Shown here piece by piece: positions 54,089 through 63,436 of a DNA stretch of 64,000 nucleotides; the first letter of the stretch is position 1; each line of letters begins with the position of its first letter. Origin of the DNA: a bacterium 0.1xD8-71 (GTDB taxonomy: Bacteria; Bacillota; Clostridia; Lachnospirales; Lachnospiraceae); NCBI GenBank assembly GCA_003612405.1, contig RAYR01000004.1, positions 124,001 to 188,000 on the forward strand, written 5' to 3'. The notes beneath the pieces are model-generated. The model was not told where the DNA came from. It was given only the letters and a program-made list of their open reading frames with translations, and searched no databases. The position numbers and the translations under genes were made by a program.

Positions 54089-55528
54089 TTATAAACTTGG
54101 ATTATTCTTCTTTTTCTGATAATCCTGCTCCTGCATTTCCTGTAGATTTAAAAATCTTTCCACATTCTGTTTTGCCATTAACAGTTCCTGCATCCTTTCC
54201 TTCGCTGGCTTATATTCTACATAAAGTTCCTTCTTCTCCTGAAGTAATTTCTGAAATTCTTCATCCAGAGCCTTTACGGTCGGAAGCTTTCCGTCCATTT
54301 TTTTGAATGCTTCTTTAGCTGCACTCCTTAGCAATAACACATCCCTATGCGCTTCAAAAAATTCCTTACTGTAACCGCTGGCCTTATACTGAATAAAAAC
54401 ATCTTGTGACTTCGAATAATTAAAAATATGCTGGCGTAACGACTTTATCTCAGCCATTCTCGTTTCAATTTCCTTCTGCCTAGATGAGATATAGGAAAAC
54501 CTGTCCCTTGCTTCAGTAGCCTTAGCTGACAGGTCATCAAAATTTTTTAAGCCATGCTCGCAAAGATACAATAATGTTTTTGATATAGCTTTCACATTAT
54601 GAACCTTGGCCCATCTTTCATAACCAGGACCCTTTTGCTTTGCAATAATATTCTGAATATCCAAAACCAAATCCAGTTTCTTTTCTGAATCACTTAATGC
54701 AACACTGTCTGATACATCATCAGAAACCTTACTAGCTCCAGTATCTACAACAAGCTCTCCTGCAATTCGTTTTACTATATCATCGTCCGCATATCCATTT
54801 CCAAGTGAACGAAGTCTAAGGTAATTTTTCTGACCTTCCGCCTTTACTGAAATATATTTTCCTCTTTTTATTTCAAATCCATGTTCTACCATGAACCTCA
54901 AAAATTCATCCATATCCTTTGGTTTTTTATTTTCAAAAATCCAATCTATCACCCCACGGATATCATCACGCCTACTAGACTTCCGAGAATATGTTGTTCT
55001 CTTCTGCCACTGCCCCGGTTTCTTTTCCGGTATCACAGACATCCCATGTTCCAAACAGATCAAATCACTCAATCTTCGTAATGCCAAGGATGACAAAAAG
55101 AAATTTTGATACTTATGTGTTGCATCCATATTGGTGGAATTATATACAATATGATTATGTATATGAGCTTTATCCACATGCGTAGCTACGATAAAAGCAT
55201 GCTTCCCCTTAGTCCATCGCATAGCAGTTTCATATCCTATTCTATTTGCCTCTTCAGGTGTAATCTCCCCAGGCTTAAAGGACTGACGAATCTGATAAGC
55301 TATCACATCTTTTTCCTTCTTTAATCCTCTTCCGGTATTTATTTCATATTGATTTTTTGTAAGTTCAAATTCCAGATCCACAGTATCTGGATTGCACTCA
55401 TAGGAAGATACAAACTCCCCGTTTTCTGTTTTCAAATCATTTTTTGCATAATCTGTTCTGTCCTTTAGACACTGACCTACAGACCTACCCTTCTGTAGAT
55501 GCATTGGTATCAATCTTGTTGCGGCCAT
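54089..55528 (-). CDS. Relaxase (MobA/VirD2 type, MOBP-like)
   Basis: Nicks oriT and leads the DNA strand into a recipient cell. The 479-aa protein has motif I near the N-terminus (SVGQCLKDRTDYAKN region with Tyr), then motif III HVDKAHIHNHIVYNS with the metal-binding histidines (about residue 120). A long helical C-terminal region follows (KEIETRMAEIKSLRQHI, EEFQKLLQEKKELYVEY). The mobC gene lies 14 nt upstream. No type IV secretion genes are present, so transfer would need a helper. Confidence 0.93.
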   Translation of the reverse strand: MAATRLIPMHLQKGRSVGQCLKDRTDYAKNDLKTENGEFVSSYECNPDTVDLEFELTKNQYEINTGRGLKKEKDVIAYQIRQSFKPGEITPEEANRIGYETAMRWTKGKHAFIVATHVDKAHIHNHIVYNSTNMDATHKYQNFFLSSLALRRLSDLICLEHGMSVIPEKKPGQWQKRTTYSRKSSRRDDIRGVIDWIFENKKPKDMDEFLRFMVEHGFEIKRGKYISVKAEGQKNYLRLRSLGNGYADDDIVKRIAGELVVDTGASKVSDDVSDSVALSDSEKKLDLVLDIQNIIAKQKGPGYERWAKVHNVKAISKTLLYLCEHGLKNFDDLSAKATEARDRFSYISSRQKEIETRMAEIKSLRQHIFNYSKSQDVFIQYKASGYSKEFFEAHRDVLLLRSAAKEAFKKMDGKLPTVKALDEEFQKLLQEKKELYVEYKPAKERMQELLMAKQNVERFLNLQEMQEQDYQKKKNNPSL

Positions 55529-55542
55529 ATTTTATCTCCTTC

Positions 55543-55878
55543 CTATCGATTCATTTTTGTCAATTCATCAAGAATTCCACGAAGCAGTTCCTTAATCTCT
55601 AACTGTTCTTCCTGAAGCTCCTTGATATCTGTTTCATAAATATTACCTGTTTCATTGGCCCTCTTAGCTACCTGATTTAGATTATTGGAATTGATTCTTG
55701 CAAGTCTCAATATTTCTGTAAGTTCTGATAAATCCAGTCGTATAACATAACCATCCATTGCCATCTTCCTAAGGTACGCTGTTGGTTTCTTGATTCCGGA
55801 AAGCTTCATTTTCTTCTGAATAATCTCGTATTCACTATCTGTTACTCTAAAATTTAATTGCTTATATCTGTATTCCAT
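55543..55878 (-). CDS. mobC: MobC relaxosome accessory protein
   Basis: The 111-aa protein has a ribbon-helix-helix-like start (YRYKQLNFRVTDSEYEIIQKKM) and the MobC signature LARINSNNLNQVAKRANETGNIY. ATG 55878 has AAGGAG 9 nt upstream; an in-frame GTG at 55902 overlaps that site. It precedes the relaxase gene. Confidence 0.9.
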   Translation of the reverse strand: MEYRYKQLNFRVTDSEYEIIQKKMKLSGIKKPTAYLRKMAMDGYVIRLDLSELTEILRLARINSNNLNQVAKRANETGNIYETDIKELQEEQLEIKELLRGILDELTKMNR

Positions 55879-56083
55879 AATGGTGTTCTCCTTCTTATCC
55901 ACATCCCATCCGGATAGGATAGGATTGATATTATTCTATTAAGTTTATTTATATTATTTTTATTACCGGATGAATTTCATACTTCCGTACTGATGAAAAT
56001 CAGCGGTTTGTAAATCTGTTTTTCATACTCCTTGGCTGTCAAAATGACAGTTCTAGACTTGTACTTATGACAGTAGTTCCACA

Positions 56084-56452
56084 TCAGGCGGATAATGCTG
56101 AAATATCTGCTACATATATTTTCGCAGGCCTTCCCAGTCCCTGCTTCTTTCTCCTTATTAGACCTACCTTTTCCAGTTCCATAAGTAGCTTCGTTGCTTT
56201 TTGATGTGCACACCTAAGTGTCATCTGAATCGTTTCCAAAGTACAATAAACAAAAACATCCCCTTTCTTATCTCTCCAATCATTTCTTTCGGATAATGAC
56301 CTGCGATCCAAAAGAATTCCATATAAAAGCATTGCATCCTCAGAAAGGCCCACATATTTTTCATCTGTTAAAATCACCTTCGGAATCCTAAAAAATGGCA
56401 TTCTCTCTTCCCGATTCATTTCGTTTGTTGTCATTACATTTTCCTCGTTCAT
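56084..56452 (-). CDS. Truncated RepA-type replication initiator (N-terminal winged helix)
   Basis: The 122-aa protein matches the N-terminal domain of RepA_N initiators: FFRIPKVILTDEKYVGLSEDAM, LLYGILLDRRSLS, ATKLLMELEKVGLIRRKKQGLGRPAKIYV. Full-length RepA is much longer; this stops soon after the KIYV stretch, as in many integrated elements. RBS AGAAGGAGGAAG precedes ATG. It could act as a regulator or be a relic. Confidence 0.8.
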   Translation of the reverse strand: MNEENVMTTNEMNREERMPFFRIPKVILTDEKYVGLSEDAMLLYGILLDRRSLSERNDWRDKKGDVFVYCTLETIQMTLRCAHQKATKLLMELEKVGLIRRKKQGLGRPAKIYVADISALSA

Positions 56453-56480
56453 TTCTTCCTCCTTCTAAAAATAAGCATAA

Positions 56481-56509
56481 GAAAAGCACTTCAGATTTCT
56501 CTAAAGTGC
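56481..56509 (-). terminator. Hairpin terminator upstream of the repA-like gene
   Basis: GCACTT-AGA / TCT-AAGTGC imperfect stem followed by TTTTCTT on the minus strand, 30 nt before the repA-like start. It may end read-through or act as an attenuator. Confidence 0.5.
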
Positions 56510-56627
56510 CTGTAAACAATGTTTCTCTTCCTTCAATTACCTACGCAGTGCCCCTATTTGCCCACAAATGCCCCTCCTTTCCTCCGTCTTATGATTTAAC
56601 ATATCATAATAAAATCTGTAATAATTG

Positions 56628-56657
56628 AAAAAGGCCGAAACCACAAGGGTTTCAGCC
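56628..56657 (-). terminator. Terminator of the kinase/phosphotransferase operon
   Basis: GGCTGAAACC / GGTTTCGGCC, 10-bp stem with one wobble or mismatch, followed by TTTTT, about 95 nt after the AraC-phosphotransferase stop. Confidence 0.85.
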
Positions 56658-56750
56658 TCTCTTATCACTTTAATAATAATATGCTTTTCCGATTTTTTGG
56701 TATAGCAAACACACCATTATTATACGAATGTATGTTAGGTATGTCAATAT

Positions 56751-58043
56751 TTAAATTTTTAAGTTTTCAAAGTGATCAATCATCCATTCTGTCATACTTA
56801 CATTTACTTCATAGATATCTTTATACTTGTCTTTATCAGCAAACCACGATGTTGCTATGAACTGATTTGCAAGTAAAACATATGGAATTGCTTCTTTCTC
56901 AGATTCAGTAAGTTTTGCAACCGCATCGTACCCATACATGATTTCTCTGAAAATCTCAATCCATTTTTTTAACTTGTCTGGATTATCTAATTCAAAGCTT
57001 TCTGATAAAATAGCGGAAGCTGCATAGCATGGATCATAAATTCTCACACTGCACTCACTCAAATCAAAATCAATAAATCCCCACTTATCATCGTTCGTAA
57101 TAATATTGCTTGGATTAGGATCTCTATGAATAATCTGTTTTGGTAGTTCATCATATAATTCTCTAAAACGACGCTGGTAAGACTCTAAAAAACTCTTATC
57201 AATAACCACCTTTTCATTAAGTGCAGGAATTGCCCATTCACAAACATTTTTAAGAATATTCATATCATCCACTACAACATCTATCTTTGCTAATGCAAGA
57301 CTCAGCTGACCGACTATCTCTCCAATAAATCTGGCCTTTTCTAAATATTCATCTAAATACACCGAGCCAACTTTTATATTTTCGCCTTGTATTCTTTTGC
57401 TTAGAACATAATATAAACCTGCATCTTCTACGTAATATTTACCGTCCTTTGTAGGAATAGTCTGTGCCGCTAACAGACCGATTGATTCTAAAGCATGTGA
57501 AATATCAATAGTTTTCTTAATACTTCCAAGGTTTGCAGAGAATTTAATCACATAATCCTCTCCAACATATTTCGCACTATCACTTATTTCCCCAGTTTCT
57601 CCGTAAACAACATCTGCAATTTTTTCATTTTCCAATTCCCAATTTATTAAAATATCTCTAATTTTCTTCTGACTCATTATGATATGTTCCTCCTGTAAAA
57701 TATTAATTCGATAAGGCTTCTTTGCCTTATACATTTTAAGGTAGACCTTCGGTGTATATCCGATTTCACGAACAAATGATTTATAGAATCCAGCGTAAGT
57801 TTCATACCCATAAGATAATGCCACATCTATTTTTTTATGCCCCAAGCTAATCTCATGAATTCCATGTAATAGCCTTCTTCTAGTAATGTACTGCATGACC
57901 GGCATACCGACAGCACTTTGAAACAAACGATAAAAGTGAAATAGCGAAAAACCTGCAAGGTCACTTAATTCTTCCACTGATATTTCAGCTTTTAAATTGT
58001 CTTCTATATAATCCAAAATTCTTTGTATCGCTTTTCTATCCAC
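56751..58043 (-). CDS. AraC-type HTH fused to an aminoglycoside-phosphotransferase-like kinase
   Basis: Residues 1-105 are an AraC/MarA-type double HTH (IQRILDYIEDNLKAEISVEEL, YETYAGFYKSFVREIGYTPKVY). Residues 130-430 form an APH/choline-kinase-type domain with catalytic loop IIHRDPNPSNII and metal-binding GFIDFDLSE. Such a fusion could sense and modify the same compound. The GTG at 58043 has AGGAGG 7 nt upstream; the ATG two codons earlier abuts it. It lies 83 nt after the second P-loop kinase on the same strand and before a terminator, so it is the last gene of that operon. Its substrate is unknown. Confidence 0.82.
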   Translation of the reverse strand: MDRKAIQRILDYIEDNLKAEISVEELSDLAGFSLFHFYRLFQSAVGMPVMQYITRRRLLHGIHEISLGHKKIDVALSYGYETYAGFYKSFVREIGYTPKVYLKMYKAKKPYRINILQEEHIIMSQKKIRDILINWELENEKIADVVYGETGEISDSAKYVGEDYVIKFSANLGSIKKTIDISHALESIGLLAAQTIPTKDGKYYVEDAGLYYVLSKRIQGENIKVGSVYLDEYLEKARFIGEIVGQLSLALAKIDVVVDDMNILKNVCEWAIPALNEKVVIDKSFLESYQRRFRELYDELPKQIIHRDPNPSNIITNDDKWGFIDFDLSECSVRIYDPCYAASAILSESFELDNPDKLKKWIEIFREIMYGYDAVAKLTESEKEAIPYVLLANQFIATSWFADKDKYKDIYEVNVSMTEWMIDHFENLKI

Positions 58044-58126
58044 CGCCATCCCTCCTTTCTAATTTGTCGTAGCTACATACATATCATAAAATATTGGTCA
58101 TAGAAAATATTTCCTACATTGCTGAT

Positions 58127-58768
58127 TTAAATTCTTTTTAGTTTCAGATATAACTCTACCATCTGCATAGTTTCATCAATACTTCTGCTTTCATCTTTCA
58201 ATAATATCTGAAAACTAGAGTGTAGGAACTTATCATAATTTTCCTGAGAATTCACTTTCTCTAAGCACGCTCGAAAATTAGCAATTGCTGCATCCGGATT
58301 CTTTTCTTTTAACAATAACTGATAAAGAAACTGCTTTTCACTATCAGGTCTGTCAAAAAATCTTGATACTGAAATGGATGGATCCGCTAACATAATCAGC
58401 ACATGGTCCTTATCAGTAATTTTTCCAAGAGTCTCTAAAGAGATATTCGTATCTACAAATATCTTTTTATCCGTCGTCTTTACAAGATCCTCCAATATTC
58501 GCAGTTCCAATATTTCACACTCTTTAGCTACATCTTCAATCCATTTTGCATATTCATCCGGGGTTCTTCTGATAAAGTCCGCCCAATCCTTTAGATTAGC
58601 TGTATATCCAAGATTCGGAAACTCATTCCAATCAAGACCACCCATTAAAGATTCGTGATAATTTTCCTCACAAGCAATGCCGTCATATTTTTCTGCCAGT
58701 CTTTTTACCATCGTGGATTTGCCCGCATATGCACTACCGTTAAAAAAATATACATTCTCTAAATCCAT
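58127..58768 (-). CDS. P-loop kinase-like protein, paralogue 2
   Basis: The 213-aa protein has Walker A FNGSAYAGKSTMVKRL near residue 10. Other hallmarks are KKIFVDTNISLETL, HVLIMLADPSI and SRFFDRPDSEKQFLYQLL. The fold looks like small nucleoside or antibiotic kinases (the AAA/zeta-toxin/chloramphenicol phosphotransferase group), but no exact family is recognised. ATG 58768 with AAAGG upstream is chosen; the reading frame opens upstream and overlaps the preceding gene by 11 nt. It is clearly homologous to the gene before it, a local duplication. Confidence 0.7.
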   Translation of the reverse strand: MDLENVYFFNGSAYAGKSTMVKRLAEKYDGIACEENYHESLMGGLDWNEFPNLGYTANLKDWADFIRRTPDEYAKWIEDVAKECEILELRILEDLVKTTDKKIFVDTNISLETLGKITDKDHVLIMLADPSISVSRFFDRPDSEKQFLYQLLLKEKNPDAAIANFRACLEKVNSQENYDKFLHSSFQILLKDESRSIDETMQMVELYLKLKRI

Positions 58769-58787
58769 ACCTATATTCCTTTCCATT

Positions 58788-59432
58788 TTATAATCCAAAA
58801 TGTTTCTCTATAATTTTTAAAGTACCCTCTACAGTATCGTGATCCGTTCTTTCTAAAAACTTAAAACCACTTTCCAACATATTGCGTCTTTCCTGTTCAT
58901 TATCCAAATTAAGTGCCTCAATAACATTATCTAACAATTCTTTTCCATCCGGAAAGGACAATATAAATTGATACACTTCATCCTTATCAGCGCGGTCAAA
59001 ATAATGCTGTAGCTTCATTTCATCTGGTGCAAATAAAAGAAATACATGCTCATAATCACTAATTTCCTTTAAAATATCTAAAGGAATGATTCCGTCAACA
59101 ATAATTTTCTGGTCTTTTGGAAAGCTTAGTAAATCGGCAATTGTAAACTCTGCTTCTTCTCTAAGTTCTGCCTGCATCCAATCTGCATACTGTCTTGGTG
59201 GTTGCGCAAAATATCCATGCCAGTCAGCACTTCTGTCAAGACTAATCGCAGGTTGTTCCTTCTCGCTAGCAACCGAAACATATTCATCATAATGATCCCC
59301 TTGACGATATCTTATAAATCCATGCTTTTCTTCTAATAATCTTGCCATTGTAGTTTTTCCGCCATAAGCTCCACCACATAAAAAATAAACATTCTTCAAA
59401 TGTTCTTTGATAATATTATTTGCTATCTTCAT
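58788..59432 (-). CDS. P-loop kinase-like protein, paralogue 1, behind an attenuator
   Basis: The 214-aa protein has Walker A CGGAYGGKTTMARLLEE (residue 18 on). It continues with KIIVDGIIPLDILKEI, HVFLLFAPDEM and HYFDRADKDEVYQFIL, paralleling the next gene. AGGAGG stands 8 nt before ATG. The terminator of a leader-peptide attenuator ends 24 nt upstream, so transcription into the gene should depend on antitermination. By context it may modify or sense an antibiotic or a ribosome-stress signal. Its substrate is unknown. Confidence 0.72.
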   Translation of the reverse strand: MKIANNIIKEHLKNVYFLCGGAYGGKTTMARLLEEKHGFIRYRQGDHYDEYVSVASEKEQPAISLDRSADWHGYFAQPPRQYADWMQAELREEAEFTIADLLSFPKDQKIIVDGIIPLDILKEISDYEHVFLLFAPDEMKLQHYFDRADKDEVYQFILSFPDGKELLDNVIEALNLDNEQERRNMLESGFKFLERTDHDTVEGTLKIIEKHFGL

Positions 59433-59455
59433 CTATATTTCCTCCTGCTTCGCAT

Positions 59456-59559
59456 AAAAAAAATCACTTATTGCTAAGTGATCTCAAAAAATACATATGA
59501 AAATATATCTGCATCAGAAATGCAGATTACTCACATGCGCAGTAAGACCAATTGAGATA
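59456..59559 (-). promoter_or_regulatory. Transcription attenuator (antiterminator and terminator) before the kinase operon
   Basis: The terminator is ATCACTTA-GCAA-TAAGTGAT followed by seven or eight T (59456-59482). Strand 2 TATCTCAAT (59551-59559) can pair with strand 1 ATTGAGATA in the leader peptide codons (59623-59631), a perfect 9 bp. Alternatively it can pair with TTGAGAT (59481-59487), which runs into the terminator stem. A separate ATCTGCAT/ATGCAGAT hairpin (59507-59527) lies between. A ribosome stalled on the leader codons would free strand 2 and prevent termination. Confidence 0.8.
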
Positions 59560-59621
59560 CACTAGCAACAAAAATAAAACAAAGCACAACTTTGCCGTTC
59601 ATTCAAACATTGCTACAAAAA

Positions 59622-59645
59622 CTATCTCAATCTAATTACTAACAC
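59622..59645 (-). CDS. Regulatory leader peptide MLVIRLR
   Basis: A GTG-started ORF of seven codons (GTG TTA GTA ATT AGA TTG AGA) and TAG, with AAGGAGG 7 nt upstream. It ends Arg-Leu-Arg. The R-x-K/R (+x+) motif is where macrolide-bound ribosomes arrest in leaders such as that of ermD (MRLR). The AGA TTG AGA codons are strand 1 of the attenuator. Confidence 0.75.
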   Translation of the reverse strand: MLVIRLR

Positions 59646-59677
59646 ACGTAAGCCTCCTTCCGTTACCAACTATCTAT

Positions 59678-59706
59678 ACTATATACTATGCTTTACATGA
59701 TTGCAA
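59678..59706 (-). promoter_or_regulatory. Promoter of the attenuator-controlled kinase operon
   Basis: TTGCAA (59701-59706) and TATAGT (59678-59683) are 17 nt apart on the minus strand, about 25 nt before the leader peptide RBS. Confidence 0.65.
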
Positions 59707-59717
59707 GTTATTCCCAT

Positions 59718-60170
59718 TTATCTGTGAATGTACATTCTTGTCATTTCTGGTTCTTCATCACCCTGAACCATACATAAGAATTCCCATCCATAATGTTCAT
59801 AAAAGCCAATATGGTCCGTCACCAAATATAAAGGCATTACTCCTTTATTTCTCATATCATCAACAACTTTATTTAGCAAATTCCCAGCCAGTCCATTTTT
59901 TCGATGTTCTTCTTCTGTATATACAGCACATACATTTGGAGTCAAATCTTTTCTATCATGAAAGTCATTTTCTATTACCCCAAGCCCTGCGACAATGGAT
60001 TCATCATATAAGCATAGATACCAACCATACTCGGTTTTTCCCGATAAATACGCTTCCATACACTCAAGGTATGCCTCTTCCGGCACGCCCCACTTACTAT
60101 GAAACCACTCAGCCGCAATAGCTACTAATTCCGGCCGTTCTCTTAATGTTATAATTTTATATTCATTCAT
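59718..60170 (-). CDS. GNAT-family N-acetyltransferase
   Basis: The 150-aa protein has the acetyl-CoA fold: VAGLGVIENDF (strand 4) and the pyrophosphate loop variant YTEEEHRKNGLAGNLLNKV. IGFYEHYGWEFLCMV at the end is typical of small-molecule or aminoglycoside-type GNATs. ATG 60170 is used; the upstream extension in the same frame lacks support. The substrate is unknown. It precedes the attenuator-controlled operon on the same strand. Confidence 0.82.
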   Translation of the reverse strand: MNEYKIITLRERPELVAIAAEWFHSKWGVPEEAYLECMEAYLSGKTEYGWYLCLYDESIVAGLGVIENDFHDRKDLTPNVCAVYTEEEHRKNGLAGNLLNKVVDDMRNKGVMPLYLVTDHIGFYEHYGWEFLCMVQGDEEPEMTRMYIHR

Positions 60171-60196
60171 ATTGCTAATATGCTCCAATAAGATGA

Positions 60197-60221
60197 AAGG
60201 CAGGCTAAAATAGCCCACCTT
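60197..60221 (-). promoter_or_regulatory. Hairpin upstream of the GNAT gene
   Basis: AAGG-TG-GGCTA-TTT-TAGCC-TG-CCTT forms a nearly continuous stem ending about 26 nt before the ATG. It may terminate the upstream transcript; only a weak T-rich stretch follows. Confidence 0.4.
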
Positions 60222-60283
60222 ATCTCTAATTCTTAATTAAATTCTGCATTATTATGTTTCAAAAAATCCGCTTGCTCTTCTCT

Positions 60284-60562
60284 TCACGACTTGCCAGACA
60301 CTCTCTTTCCTTCGCGAACGATTCTTTGAATACTTTTCTCCGAAAGTGAAAACTGCTTGGCAAGACTGGCAATAGAGCTGCCACCCTGATATTTCTGGCT
60401 AATCTCGTGATTTCGCTGTATTAGGTATTGTCTTGTATCAGTATGACTCCCCCACTCCTTTTTAGATGTGCTGGGAATATATATTGCTTTTCCATTTACA
60501 TATTGCTGAATAGTTTCTATTAATTCTTTTGGCAGAACCTCTTCTGCTCTAATATAGCTCAT
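60284..60562 (-). CDS. CD3324-family small DNA-binding protein (Mor-like)
   Basis: The 92-aa protein starts MSYIRAEEVLPKELIETIQQYV, has GKAIYIPSTSKKEWG, and ends in an HTH (GGSSIASLAKQFSLSEKSIQRIV). This matches the CD3324 family, related to the Mor activator of phage Mu and common in Clostridia. AGGAGG precedes ATG. It may regulate the neighbouring acetyltransferase genes; the target is not known. Confidence 0.82.
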   Translation of the reverse strand: MSYIRAEEVLPKELIETIQQYVNGKAIYIPSTSKKEWGSHTDTRQYLIQRNHEISQKYQGGSSIASLAKQFSLSEKSIQRIVREGKRVSGKS

Positions 60563-60684
60563 AGTATCCTCCTAAATATAATTTCTTAGAATTCATCTGA
60601 GCTTAACTATTCTTTTTATTTTAAGCTCAGACTACTGAGCCAAAACATATCTTTTTTTCATAAATAAAATGCCCCTTTCCTTTA

Positions 60685-61113
60685 TTAAAAAGACTTCCCT
60701 AGGCAATTAACATCACCATTATTGAGTCCGCATTTTTTATAAAACTCTAGATTATCATTTATAGAAATAAGTTCTATTGTGTGAATATCTTTTACTTTAA
60801 GTTGCTCTTCTAAGGCGCTAAGCAACTTACGCCCTACTCCTTTTCTTTTCCATTTTGAAGCAACAAAAATTTCTGAAACAAAGAACATATCATAGTCTGC
60901 ATAAGGATCCACAAATCCCAAAAGACCACCTATAATTTCACCGTCTTCTACTGCCACTAAACCCAAGGCTTCAAATCCGCACAAAATGGACTGTACTCTT
61001 CTTACTGCCTTTTCCTGAACCCAAGCCTCATTCCAAGGCTCCTCTGAATATGCCTGCCCCATTACTCCGGCAATTTCCTCGATATCATTTTGATTAACTA
61101 CTCTTATCTCCAT
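60685..61113 (-). CDS. GNAT-family N-acetyltransferase (aminoglycoside 6'-type size)
   Basis: The 142-aa protein has the acetyl-CoA loop FVASKWKRKGVGRKLLSAL and ends DNLEFYKKCGLNNGDVNCLGKSF. The C-terminal FYKKCGL is shared with AAC(6')-type enzymes, but a substrate cannot be read from sequence. Its ATG follows directly on the stop of the upstream GNAT gene, so the two are translationally coupled. Confidence 0.82.
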   Translation of the reverse strand: MEIRVVNQNDIEEIAGVMGQAYSEEPWNEAWVQEKAVRRVQSILCGFEALGLVAVEDGEIIGGLLGFVDPYADYDMFFVSEIFVASKWKRKGVGRKLLSALEEQLKVKDIHTIELISINDNLEFYKKCGLNNGDVNCLGKSF

Positions 61114-61647
61114 TTATTTACCCTCATGGCCTCGTATTACATAAAAGCGATACAATTCTTCTTTTTCATCATCAATGTCTTTGTACATTTTCTTTTCTAT
61201 TAATTTGAAACCAGATTTCTCTGCTACTTTCCATGATGGTGTATTCGCATCGAGAATAGTTGCTATTATTTCAGACTCACTATATTGTTTAAAGAAAAAC
61301 TGAACATATGCATTTATCGCCTCTGTCATATATCCTTTTTTCCTAAAAGGTGTTCCTATAAAATAACAAATACCAACCTTATCCACATCTTCATAATATG
61401 TAGAACCAACAGAGCCTATGACCTCTTCTGTTTCTTTTAGTATAACAGTGCAAGGTATATAATTTTCTCTTGGATTATCATTATTTGTTAATTTTAGAGC
61501 CTCTTCAATCCAATCATTGATCCACTCTGAACAATTAGCATCAAACCCAACTTGACTAAGACTCCCATCTTGAGACATACCAGAAAAGATAATCTCGTCT
61601 CCGCGCTGTATGGATCGAATAATCAATCTATTAGTTTCTAGCCACAT
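61114..61647 (-). CDS. GNAT-family N-acetyltransferase (RimJ/RimL type)
   Basis: The 177-aa protein starts MWLETNRLIIRSIQRGDE (the ETxRLxxR motif of the RimJ/RimL group). It has IGTPFRKKGYMTEAINAYVQF for acetyl-CoA binding and ANTPSWKVAEKSGFKLIEK near the end. AGAGGTG precedes the ATG. It is the gene nearest to rlmD and its composition is AT-rich, so it belongs to the island. The substrate is unknown. Confidence 0.85.
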   Translation of the reverse strand: MWLETNRLIIRSIQRGDEIIFSGMSQDGSLSQVGFDANCSEWINDWIEEALKLTNNDNPRENYIPCTVILKETEEVIGSVGSTYYEDVDKVGICYFIGTPFRKKGYMTEAINAYVQFFFKQYSESEIIATILDANTPSWKVAEKSGFKLIEKKMYKDIDDEKEELYRFYVIRGHEGK

Positions 61648-61735
61648 TTAAATCACCTCTTCTGATTAAGTATAAGTTCCATCCTAATATATGAAAACCT
61701 CAATTTTAATTATAAATAAACTTGCTCCAGTATGT

Positions 61736-63436
61736 TTATATCATCTGAAACGCCTTCAGTGCCTCCACAATTGCCTCTTCCTTCTCCTTCGGGCACCGTG
61801 GCTGTCTAGCATCCTCCGACTTTGGCAAATTGAAATTCTCAGCCAATTCAATACCACATTTCCGTTTTACCTGAGCAATATAGAGATTCGAAACCTTCAT
61901 CCCGTCATTATGCTCCGCCACATACTTCTTTATCTCCTCATATGTGGCCTTGCTCTCAGCAGAAGTGATATCCATCTCATCCATATCCAGTTTCACTTTC
62001 ACATGATGTTTTGCCTCATGAAGTTTGGACAATAAACATACCGTCTCCACATGCCCGGTCCACGAAAACTGATCCACTGCCACGCACCTTTTCACCACAT
62101 ACCCATGCTCCAGAAACACCTCCAGATCCCTGGCCAGGCTGGTGGGCTTACAGGAAATATACAGAATATTCTCCACCCTATACCCAATAATCTTTAAAAG
62201 CGCCTTCGGGTGCACCCCGTCCCTTGGCGGATCCAGGACGATCATATCCGGCTTCTCCGTGATCGTATCCAGTACTTTCAATACATCTCCGGCAATAAAT
62301 TCACAGTTATGTAAACCATTTAGGGCTGCATTTTCCCTGGCTGCCACAACGGCCTCCTCCACAATCTCCACGCCGATCACTTTCTTCACTACAGGCGAAA
62401 GCATCTGCGCTATGGTGCCTGTACCGCTATAGAGATCATACACAATCTGCATCTCTTTGTCTCTCATGGCATCCAAAATATATTCTCTGGCCGTACGATA
62501 CAACAGTTCTGCGCTCAGGCTGTTGGTCTGAAAAAAAGAAAACAAGGAAATCTTGAATTGCAATCCCAGCAGTTCCTCATAAAAGTAATCCCTGCCATAC
62601 AGGATATCCGTCTCATCACTTTGCACCACATCCGCCTGAGAATCGTTTTTCACATGCATGATCCCCACAATTGTTCCTTGCAAAGGAAGCTGTTGTAACT
62701 TCTCCTGCCATGCCACAAGCATCTGCGTTTCCGTCAAATCCGCAGTCTGGGTGGTGGTCACCAGTGCCAAGAGTATCTCTCCTGTCCGTACGGCTTTGCG
62801 AACCAGAAGATGCCGCAGATAACCCTCATGACGCAATCTATGGTAGAAGCTGACAGATAAGCCCTCCTCTTTTCTCTCCTGGAAAAAATCCAGTGTACAG
62901 GCAAGAATCTGACGATAATCCTGATCCACAATCTGACAGTCTTTTACTGATACAATATCATAAAAGCTCCCTCTCTTATGCATACCAAGCGCCAGAGGGC
63001 CGTCCTTGACCTCGTCCCCAAAGGTAAACTCCATCTTATTGCGATAGGCAAAAATCGCCGGATTTGCCTTGGCACTTTCAAAGCTAAAATCTTCCTCCTG
63101 TCTGGAAAGTGCAGGTTCCAAAAGGCGTTTTACCTGTTGTTCCTTAATTTTCAATGTCTCCTCATAGGGCAAAGACAAGTAAATACAACTGCCACACAGG
63201 CCAAAATGAGGACAGGGACTTTTCTGCTCCAATGCAGAAGGTTCCACTACCTCCAGAAGGCGTCCTTCCGCCTTTCCCTTTCTGGCCTTATTAATCACAG
63301 CGCGCACTTTCTGTCCCGGCAGGGCATTTTTCACCACGCACACGCCCTCGTCACAGGTCACAATGCCTTTATTCGGGAAATCGATTCTTGTCACGATTCC
63401 TTCAATCTGTTGTCCTTTTTTCATCTTTATAAGCAT
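61736..63436 (-). CDS. rlmD: 23S rRNA (uracil-C5)-methyltransferase RlmD/RumA type with an extra C-terminal domain
   Basis: The 566-aa protein has an N-terminal TRAM domain (GQQIEGIVTRIDFPNKG), a cysteine cluster (CPHFGLCGSC), and the SAM-dependent core (VYDLYSGTGTIAQML, VLDPPRDGVHPKAL). The catalytic loop YISCKPTSLARDL is followed by an extension after residue 475. The last 75 residues (ATYEEIKKYV ... KVSNLYIAQVKRKCG ... PRCPKEKEEAIVEALKAFQMI) are nearly the same as the end of the serine recombinase at 50.1 kb. An ATG at 63424 is an alternative start. The island ends at its 3' end. Confidence 0.92.
   Translation of the reverse strand: MLIKMKKGQQIEGIVTRIDFPNKGIVTCDEGVCVVKNALPGQKVRAVINKARKGKAEGRLLEVVEPSALEQKSPCPHFGLCGSCIYLSLPYEETLKIKEQQVKRLLEPALSRQEEDFSFESAKANPAIFAYRNKMEFTFGDEVKDGPLALGMHKRGSFYDIVSVKDCQIVDQDYRQILACTLDFFQERKEEGLSVSFYHRLRHEGYLRHLLVRKAVRTGEILLALVTTTQTADLTETQMLVAWQEKLQQLPLQGTIVGIMHVKNDSQADVVQSDETDILYGRDYFYEELLGLQFKISLFSFFQTNSLSAELLYRTAREYILDAMRDKEMQIVYDLYSGTGTIAQMLSPVVKKVIGVEIVEEAVVAARENAALNGLHNCEFIAGDVLKVLDTITEKPDMIVLDPPRDGVHPKALLKIIGYRVENILYISCKPTSLARDLEVFLEHGYVVKRCVAVDQFSWTGHVETVCLLSKLHEAKHHVKVKLDMDEMDITSAESKATYEEIKKYVAEHNDGMKVSNLYIAQVKRKCGIELAENFNLPKSEDARQPRCPKEKEEAIVEALKAFQMI

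Follow-up and report, generated by a model that had tools for sequence, protein, structure and literature searches.

A predicted macrolide-type attenuator precedes a family of small P-loop kinases, a candidate for a new inducible resistance enzyme

What does a bacterial gene respond to when it is preceded by a short leader peptide ending in Arg-Leu-Arg and encodes a kinase of no recognised family? The question is raised by a locus on the minus strand of a 64,000-nt stretch (here the window, meaning the whole stretch that was analysed) of contig RAYR01000004.1, positions 124,001 to 188,000, from the Lachnospiraceae bacterium 0.1xD8-71 (assembly GCA_003612405.1). An earlier note on this DNA had proposed that the leader, MLVIRLR, forms a stall-and-antiterminate switch in front of two P-loop kinase genes and a fusion gene. 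Judged from sequence, regulation of the macrolide type is very probable here, and on balance we favour a drug-inducible attenuator of this type controlling the first gene, kinase 1, whose product would most likely modify the inducing drug.

The kinase 1 gene (58788-59432) is preceded by about 270 nt in which a strong ribosome-binding site, an open reading frame (ORF), a long leader hairpin, a second hairpin and a terminator with a GCAA loop can be read. The ORF has a GTG start and the codons GTG-TTA-GTA-ATT-AGA-TTG-AGA-TAG. The features are as follows.

59678..59706, minus strand: candidate promoter TTGCAA-17-TATAGT (9 of 12 consensus matches).
59657-59653, minus strand: Shine-Dalgarno (SD) sequence GGAGG (sequence).
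59622..59657, minus strand: SD and leader ORF MLVIRLR (ORF 59645-59622; sequence), a block kept in the related loci L066, L067, L068, L075, L077 and L078.
59623..59631, minus strand: strand 1, ATTGAGATA (sequence and fold).
59551..59559, minus strand: strand 2, TATCTCAAT, whose partner is strand 1 or strand 3 (sequence and fold).
59507..59527, minus strand: intervening hairpin ATCTGCATTTCTGATGCAGAT (terminator-like scan).
59481..59487, minus strand: strand 3, TTGAGAT, the antiterminator partner of strand 2 (sequence and masking fold).
59456..59482, minus strand: intrinsic terminator ATCACTTA-GCAA-TAAGTGAT, with an 8-bp stem and a T run (sequence and fold).
58788..59432, minus strand: kinase 1, a P-loop small-molecule kinase directly behind the leader (domain search, predicted structure and fold search).

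The leader is thus a short, SD-led ORF with a +x+ arrest motif (Arg/Lys-x-Arg/Lys), and an intrinsic terminator lies ahead of the gene. The peptide, the helix between strands 1 and 2 (1:2) and the alternative between strands 2 and 3 (2:3), all claimed in the earlier note, are present in the sequence, as is the 8-bp terminator with its GNRA loop; the latter ends 23 nt upstream of the kinase 1 ATG (59432) rather than the 24 nt first given. The leader region has a minimum free energy of -77.7 kcal/mol against a mean of -58.7 for dinucleotide shuffles (z = -4.37), and none of 200 shuffles was as stable. No Rfam family was matched by the whole window at gathering cut-offs or by the leader region at E values up to 1. 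In a scan of the leader region, terminator-like and promoter-like sites were not commoner than in shuffles, and the candidate promoter is therefore weak evidence. The attenuator terminator is absent from the output of the terminator scanner, presumably because its stem has just two G-C pairs.

Without drug, MLVIRLR would be translated freely, strands 1 and 2 would pair, strand 3 would be left free and the terminator would halt transcription. With a macrolide or ketolide in the exit tunnel, the ribosome would stall when Leu occupies the P site and the second Arg the A site, covering strand 1; strands 2 and 3 would then pair, the base of the terminator would be lost and the kinase gene would be transcribed. 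The kinase would inactivate the inducing drug by phosphorylation, and relatives fused to GNAT domains would also do so by acetylation. In this scheme the macrolide signal and the drug-modifying function are what we infer; the anatomy, the conservation of the pairing, the recurrence of +x+ leaders and the kinase fold are computed.

The switch was modelled by blocking the nucleotides under a ribosome stalled with Leu6 in the P site (to P-site +15) and refolding. In the window this masking of strand 1, which the earlier note had asked for, produced the shift it predicted: the terminator core fell from 1.00 to 0.18, and the 2:3 helix rose from 0.00 to 0.83 (from 0.00 to 1.00 in a transcript ending before the 3' arm of the terminator). 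Blocking strand 3 weakened the terminator region from -10.9 to -2.4 kcal/mol. The 2:3 helix is just 7 bp long and shares 2 nt with the 8-bp terminator stem; the terminator would therefore be weakened, not removed.

An alignment of eight kinases served to scan a genome collection at species level for relatives of kinase 1, and the counts below refer to the best 80 of at least 224 relatives found. Fourteen of these loci are 58-99% identical to kinase 1, and the block GGAGG.TTACGTGTGTT.GTAAT is present in the six loci named above. A leader with +x+ stands in five of the 14 (L066 and L067, MLVIRLR; L075, MLVMRLR; L077, MLVITMRLR; L078, MLVMKLR), among which L066 is not independent because it has nearly the same sequence as the window. 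By eye, the 2:3 pairing is kept through changed bases in L068, L075, L077 and L078 (few sequences, and no statistic): L068 has CTCAG/CTGAG in place of the CTCAA/TTGAG of the window, and different pairs lengthen the helix in the other three. The conservation of motif and pairing expected by the earlier note is thus seen in relatives. On masking, the terminator core falls in L067 (0.16) and L077 (0.03) as in the window, the L067 result not being independent because its kinase is 95% identical. Mutually exclusive helices switched by a leader-bound ribosome are therefore predicted in the window, L067 and L077, and more weakly in L068, L075 and L078. The loose leader filter described below misses L075 because its leader lies more than 300 nt upstream; its match in L079 was judged to be chance, as were further loose matches, e.g. 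L072 (-23).

Outside the window, the leader DNA occurs in its own genome and 97 related genomes only as pieces of up to 45 bases, and a search of plasmid DNA found none. Protein searches with kinase 1 found no relative in phages and one 39% identical paralogue among plasmids, on pRUMAL02, which has no SD-led +x+ leader in 350 nt; none of 151 pattern matches in viral contigs was a relative.

The remaining 66 loci are 27-38% identical to kinase 1, and +x+ leaders recur before these distant members of the family, re-coded and in other attenuator layouts. Counts use the 64 loci with at least 200 nt upstream (L096 and L138, with too little upstream DNA, were omitted). A strict filter, set after the leaders had been seen, accepted SD-led ATG ORFs of up to 14 codons carrying [RK][LIT][RK] and lying 60-135 nt upstream of the kinase; it was passed by 43 of the 64 loci, compared with a mean of 0.32 (maximum 3) in 50 dinucleotide-shuffle sets and none of 143 other genes in the 80 loci. 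An earlier, looser filter was passed by 44 of the 64, where 20 shuffle sets averaged 7.0 (maximum 11), and by 14 of the 143 other genes and one of 22 control paralogues. The peptides vary (MVMFLRLRNI, MSGCLRLRNI, MVMRLRK, MFTAMAMRTRMI, MYCHFLYNNNKLR) and the motif persists. In 42 distant leaders it is written in 24 different 9-nt codings (RLR 24, KLR 11, RTR 3, RIR 2, RLK 2), and selection therefore acts on the peptide. L117, a near copy of L109, was omitted from this tally and included in both filter counts; KNK, the 43rd motif listed (L083), is doubtful. A quick tree of 99 kinases (alignment A3; L065, L066, L117 and L138 left out; leader groups assigned by hand) shows the +x+ leaders clustered, none of 500 shuffles being as low, a result that near-copies help.

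Across 33 aligned distant leaders, two predicted alternative helices keep their pairing with compensating changes. The hairpin after the ORF is paired in 95.9% of cells, with 39 doubly changed, and none of 500 shuffles reaches either value; the competing helix beside the SD of the gene is 91.4% paired, with five doubly changed pairs (2 of 500 shuffles). A release of this SD by a +x+ stall was considered and is suggestive at most, the SD being unpaired at 0.58 with no ribosome, 0.59 with a stalled ribosome and 0.44 with a ribosome at the stop codon (30 of the 33 aligned leaders). By eye, a short hairpin with a T-rich tail comes after each of the leaders of L080, L081, L082, L084 and L088, which end in KLR, RIR, RTR or RLK; this is possibly a third attenuator layout.

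The literature points to what such a leader senses. RLR leaders are a mark of macrolide-resistance attenuators (PMC6310831, PMC4335068, PMC10314930), and +x+ is the arrest motif of macrolides and ketolides (PMC8298421). For arrest by erythromycin the residues before the motif matter too and RLR is less critical (PMC8298421), so the motif does not tell the exact inducer. The MRLR leaders of mef(E)/mel (Mega) and erm(D)/erm(K) share with the window a short SD-led RLR ORF, alternative helices and a terminator before the gene (PMC4335068), whereas the window has a different leader (GTG start, MLV...) and a different gene, and no Rfam match. The HflXr (lmo0762) attenuator of Listeria likewise combines an RLR small ORF, a terminator and antiterminator and an unexpected kind of resistance gene (PMC6310831); it controls a homologue of a ribosome-splitting factor, whereas that of the window would control a small kinase. 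By anatomy only, the predicted attenuator belongs with the macrolide-responsive ones of the erm/mef/msr/hflXr type. No description of a +x+ leader before such kinases was found among titles and the starts of abstracts.

A second connection runs through the leader block itself. A 23-nt leader pattern, scanned with up to three mismatches over 397 genomes of the family, was found in five. Two of these are the genome of the window and G317 (with the leader of L077); in the remaining three an efflux gene of the Mef(A) family follows the pattern (L146, L147, L149). In these three the first 18 bases are exactly GGAGGCTTACGTGTGTTA (SD, spacer, GTG, TTA). The L146 protein (1500-2991) matches NF000245 at 555.7 bits (E 6e-167), below the model cut-off of 675; the L147 and L149 proteins are 98-99% and that of L179 68% identical to it. 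L179 lies in a fourth genome with the 18-nt block before a Mef-type gene (G303), which also carries a leader-kinase locus of the distant type (L059). These four loci differ from the window in having a major facilitator superfamily (MFS) pump gene and a leader without +x+. A class-wide search for the block gave one of 341 genomes, again before a Mef-type gene; its pattern missed the leader of the window itself and is hence silent on kinase leaders.

Several observations weigh against a conserved, macrolide-type switch. Among the close loci, L069-L074, L076 and L079 have no such leader (8 of 14, up to 620 nt inspected), and the leader ORF of L068 stops after MLVM, without +x+ (the one leader of this kind among the 14). 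MsrDL (MYLIFM) arrests at its stop codon (PMC10314930), and by analogy a leader of the L068 type need not be dead. Under masking the terminator core stays at 0.92 in L068 and 1.00 in L075, because it can coexist with the 2:3 helix, the base of the terminator being lost; in L078 the 2:3 helix is dominant even unmasked. Besides L084, whose leader starts with GTG and carries RTR, the 21 misses of the strict filter comprise three distant leaders that have lost +x+ (L122, L123, L137) and 17 of 64 loci without an accepted leader, some of them with loose-filter ORFs that were not accepted (L083, L087, L092, L100, L111 and others). When the SD-side helix of the distant leaders is slid by -1 column, as many cells (7) are doubly changed and there are 14 pair types against 12, with just 50.4% paired, so that support for this second helix rests chiefly on the pairing itself. 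The Mef-type leaders read MLIFVR or MLICVR and lack +x+, and a reversed control of the 23-nt pattern gave three matches in two genomes; a match with three mismatches is therefore not rare, and weight comes only from the gene behind it and the exact 18 bases. MLIFVR and MLICVR resemble stalling leaders of the IFV type.

What kinase 1 does is suggested by its fold and its family. The predicted structure (predicted local distance difference test score, pLDDT, 93.5) has a Walker A motif and a fold like that of nucleoside monophosphate kinases, its nearest folds being adenylate, NR and shikimate kinases, i.e. nucleotide and metabolite kinases; the P-loop and acidic and Arg residues are kept. Neither kinase 1 nor its paralogue, kinase 2, reaches a curated family cut-off (Pfam and NCBIfam), in keeping with the earlier description of the kinases as unrecognised. 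Chloramphenicol phosphotransferase is a small P-loop kinase, like kinase 1; it gave no match to kinase 1 or 2 at E up to 0.1 and was not among the 50 fold-search matches listed, a result that does not count against it. The Mph macrolide phosphotransferases, which have the APH fold, would be functional analogues if our preferred reading is right, whereas kinase 1 resembles P-loop adenylate kinases and matches neither APH nor Mph families at E up to 0.1. In 19 of the 80 loci the kinase is fused to GNAT, which recalls bifunctional drug-modifying enzymes. AAC(6')-Ie/APH(2'')-Ia joins a kinase and a GNAT domain in one polypeptide as these fusions do, with the reverse order and an unrelated kinase fold. 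If regulation is of the macrolide type, drug modification is the leading and probable function. That gut and rumen bacteria set a predicted switch of this kind before the family makes these kinases strong candidates for inducible antibiotic-resistance enzymes of a new sort.

Alternatively, the attenuator may respond to macrolides while the kinase, with or without GNAT, protects or reprogrammes translation by acting on a nucleotide, a tRNA, a ribosomal component or a translation factor. HflXr is a protein behind an RLR leader that does not modify drugs (PMC6310831), and the nearest folds of kinase 1 would suit such a role. However, the GNAT fusions and the neighbouring GNAT-like and kinase-like cargo (by eye in the case of L066 and L067) fit small-molecule modification better, and family members matched generic P-loop families with no RNA-binding or ribosome-binding domain above cut-off; we regard this alternative as unlikely. 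Improbable, in our view, is a leader that is not specific to macrolides and reacts instead to stress on translation in general or to more than one drug acting on the ribosome. Such breadth has a precedent in toiL, the leader of topAI-yjhQ in E. coli, which answers to at least five antibiotic classes (PMC12121999), and strand 1 could also be covered by a ribosome halted at some other codon, yet what is kept under re-coding is exactly +x+, a motif tied to macrolides and ketolides (PMC8298421). A short ORF and inverted repeats that resemble an attenuator by chance would agree with the unenriched promoter-like and terminator-like matches and with the short pieces of leader DNA in the 97 related genomes, but conservation of the block, the +x+ motif and the pairing, alongside the fold z of -4.37, brings this explanation close to refuted.

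A leader of this kind reveals what its gene answers to, and dozens of diverged leaders keep the arrest motif before one kinase family, whose function can therefore be tested directly. If macrolides are what these kinases modify, the family would be a resistance class invisible to searches with known genes, one that resides in the commensal bacteria of animals, livestock among them, and that adjoins mobilization genes in the window. Should the kinases act in some other way, their induction by drugs bound in the tunnel would still add a new arm to the ribosome-arrest response. Only tentatively, and at somewhat less than an even chance, do we extend drug modification to a widespread group of inducible, macrolide-inactivating phosphotransferases of the adenylate kinase fold in gut and rumen Clostridia, often fused to GNAT, many with their own +x+ leader and some on mobilizable elements.

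The other genes of the putative operon are less closely tied to the leader. The features downstream of kinase 1 are as follows.

58127..58768, minus strand: kinase 2, a paralogue from the set of rows without accepted +x+ leaders.
56751..58049, minus strand: AraC-type helix-turn-helix (HTH) domain fused to an APH-fold kinase (AraC-APH; domain and homology searches).
About 56628..56658, minus strand: terminator-like hairpin GGCTGAAACC..GGTTTCGGCC followed by T, after the AraC-APH gene (by eye).

The gene identities first proposed, two paralogous P-loop proteins (29% identical) and an AraC-HTH/APH fusion, were borne out; the proposal of three genes in one conserved, controlled operon was not. Kinase 2 sits in a 21-row set of the tree with no accepted +x+ leader (one loose match, L043, was judged to be chance), and its identity in L066 is only 67%, against 97-99% for the genes that precede it. 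AraC-APH is absent within 3 kb downstream in L066, whose genome gave AraC-domain matches only, and lies on another contig in two other genomes bearing the leader-kinase. On these grounds its membership of a conserved operon was rejected, and it is probably separate cargo. The first matches listed for AraC-APH are amicoumacin kinase, homoserine kinase, aminopropanol kinase and APHs; Mph is not among the 50 matches listed, nor among those listed in a curated-family search (25 of 31 families). As for the terminator said to close the operon, a hairpin of that kind stands after the fusion gene, and the terminator scanner does not list it.

The cargo of the window (54089-63436) lies between rlmD (61736-63436; TIGR00479) and RepA_N, NikA-like and relaxase genes. 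In L066 and L067, by eye, differing accessory genes are flanked by the end of an rlmD-like gene and, at the other side, by RepA-like or NikA-like genes, which suggests exchangeable cargo carried by a mobilizable element that makes use of the 3' region of rlmD. The stretch just upstream of the leader (59718-61647) contains one GNAT gene (Pfam), two GNAT-like ORFs (by eye) and an HTH gene of the CD3324 family, and these are 97-98% identical in L066. A consensus promoter, TTGACA-17-TATAAT (12/12), occurs at 56719-56747, just past AraC-APH and about 60 nt before the terminator-like hairpin; together they are possibly a short RNA or an attenuator of the mobilization module.

Elsewhere in the same genome there is a third kinase paralogue (G000 C35:222141-222800, L061), which is 39% identical and has no +x+ ORF in 350 nt, and a second, partial AraC-APH-like gene near a contig end (G000 C49:251205-251780, L178; 51% identical). 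Beyond a strong RrnaAD match, two weaker ones in this genome reach the Pfam cut-off, at C49:8484-8687 (L152, 38.3 bits) and C19:43314-43682 (L153, 25.9 bits).

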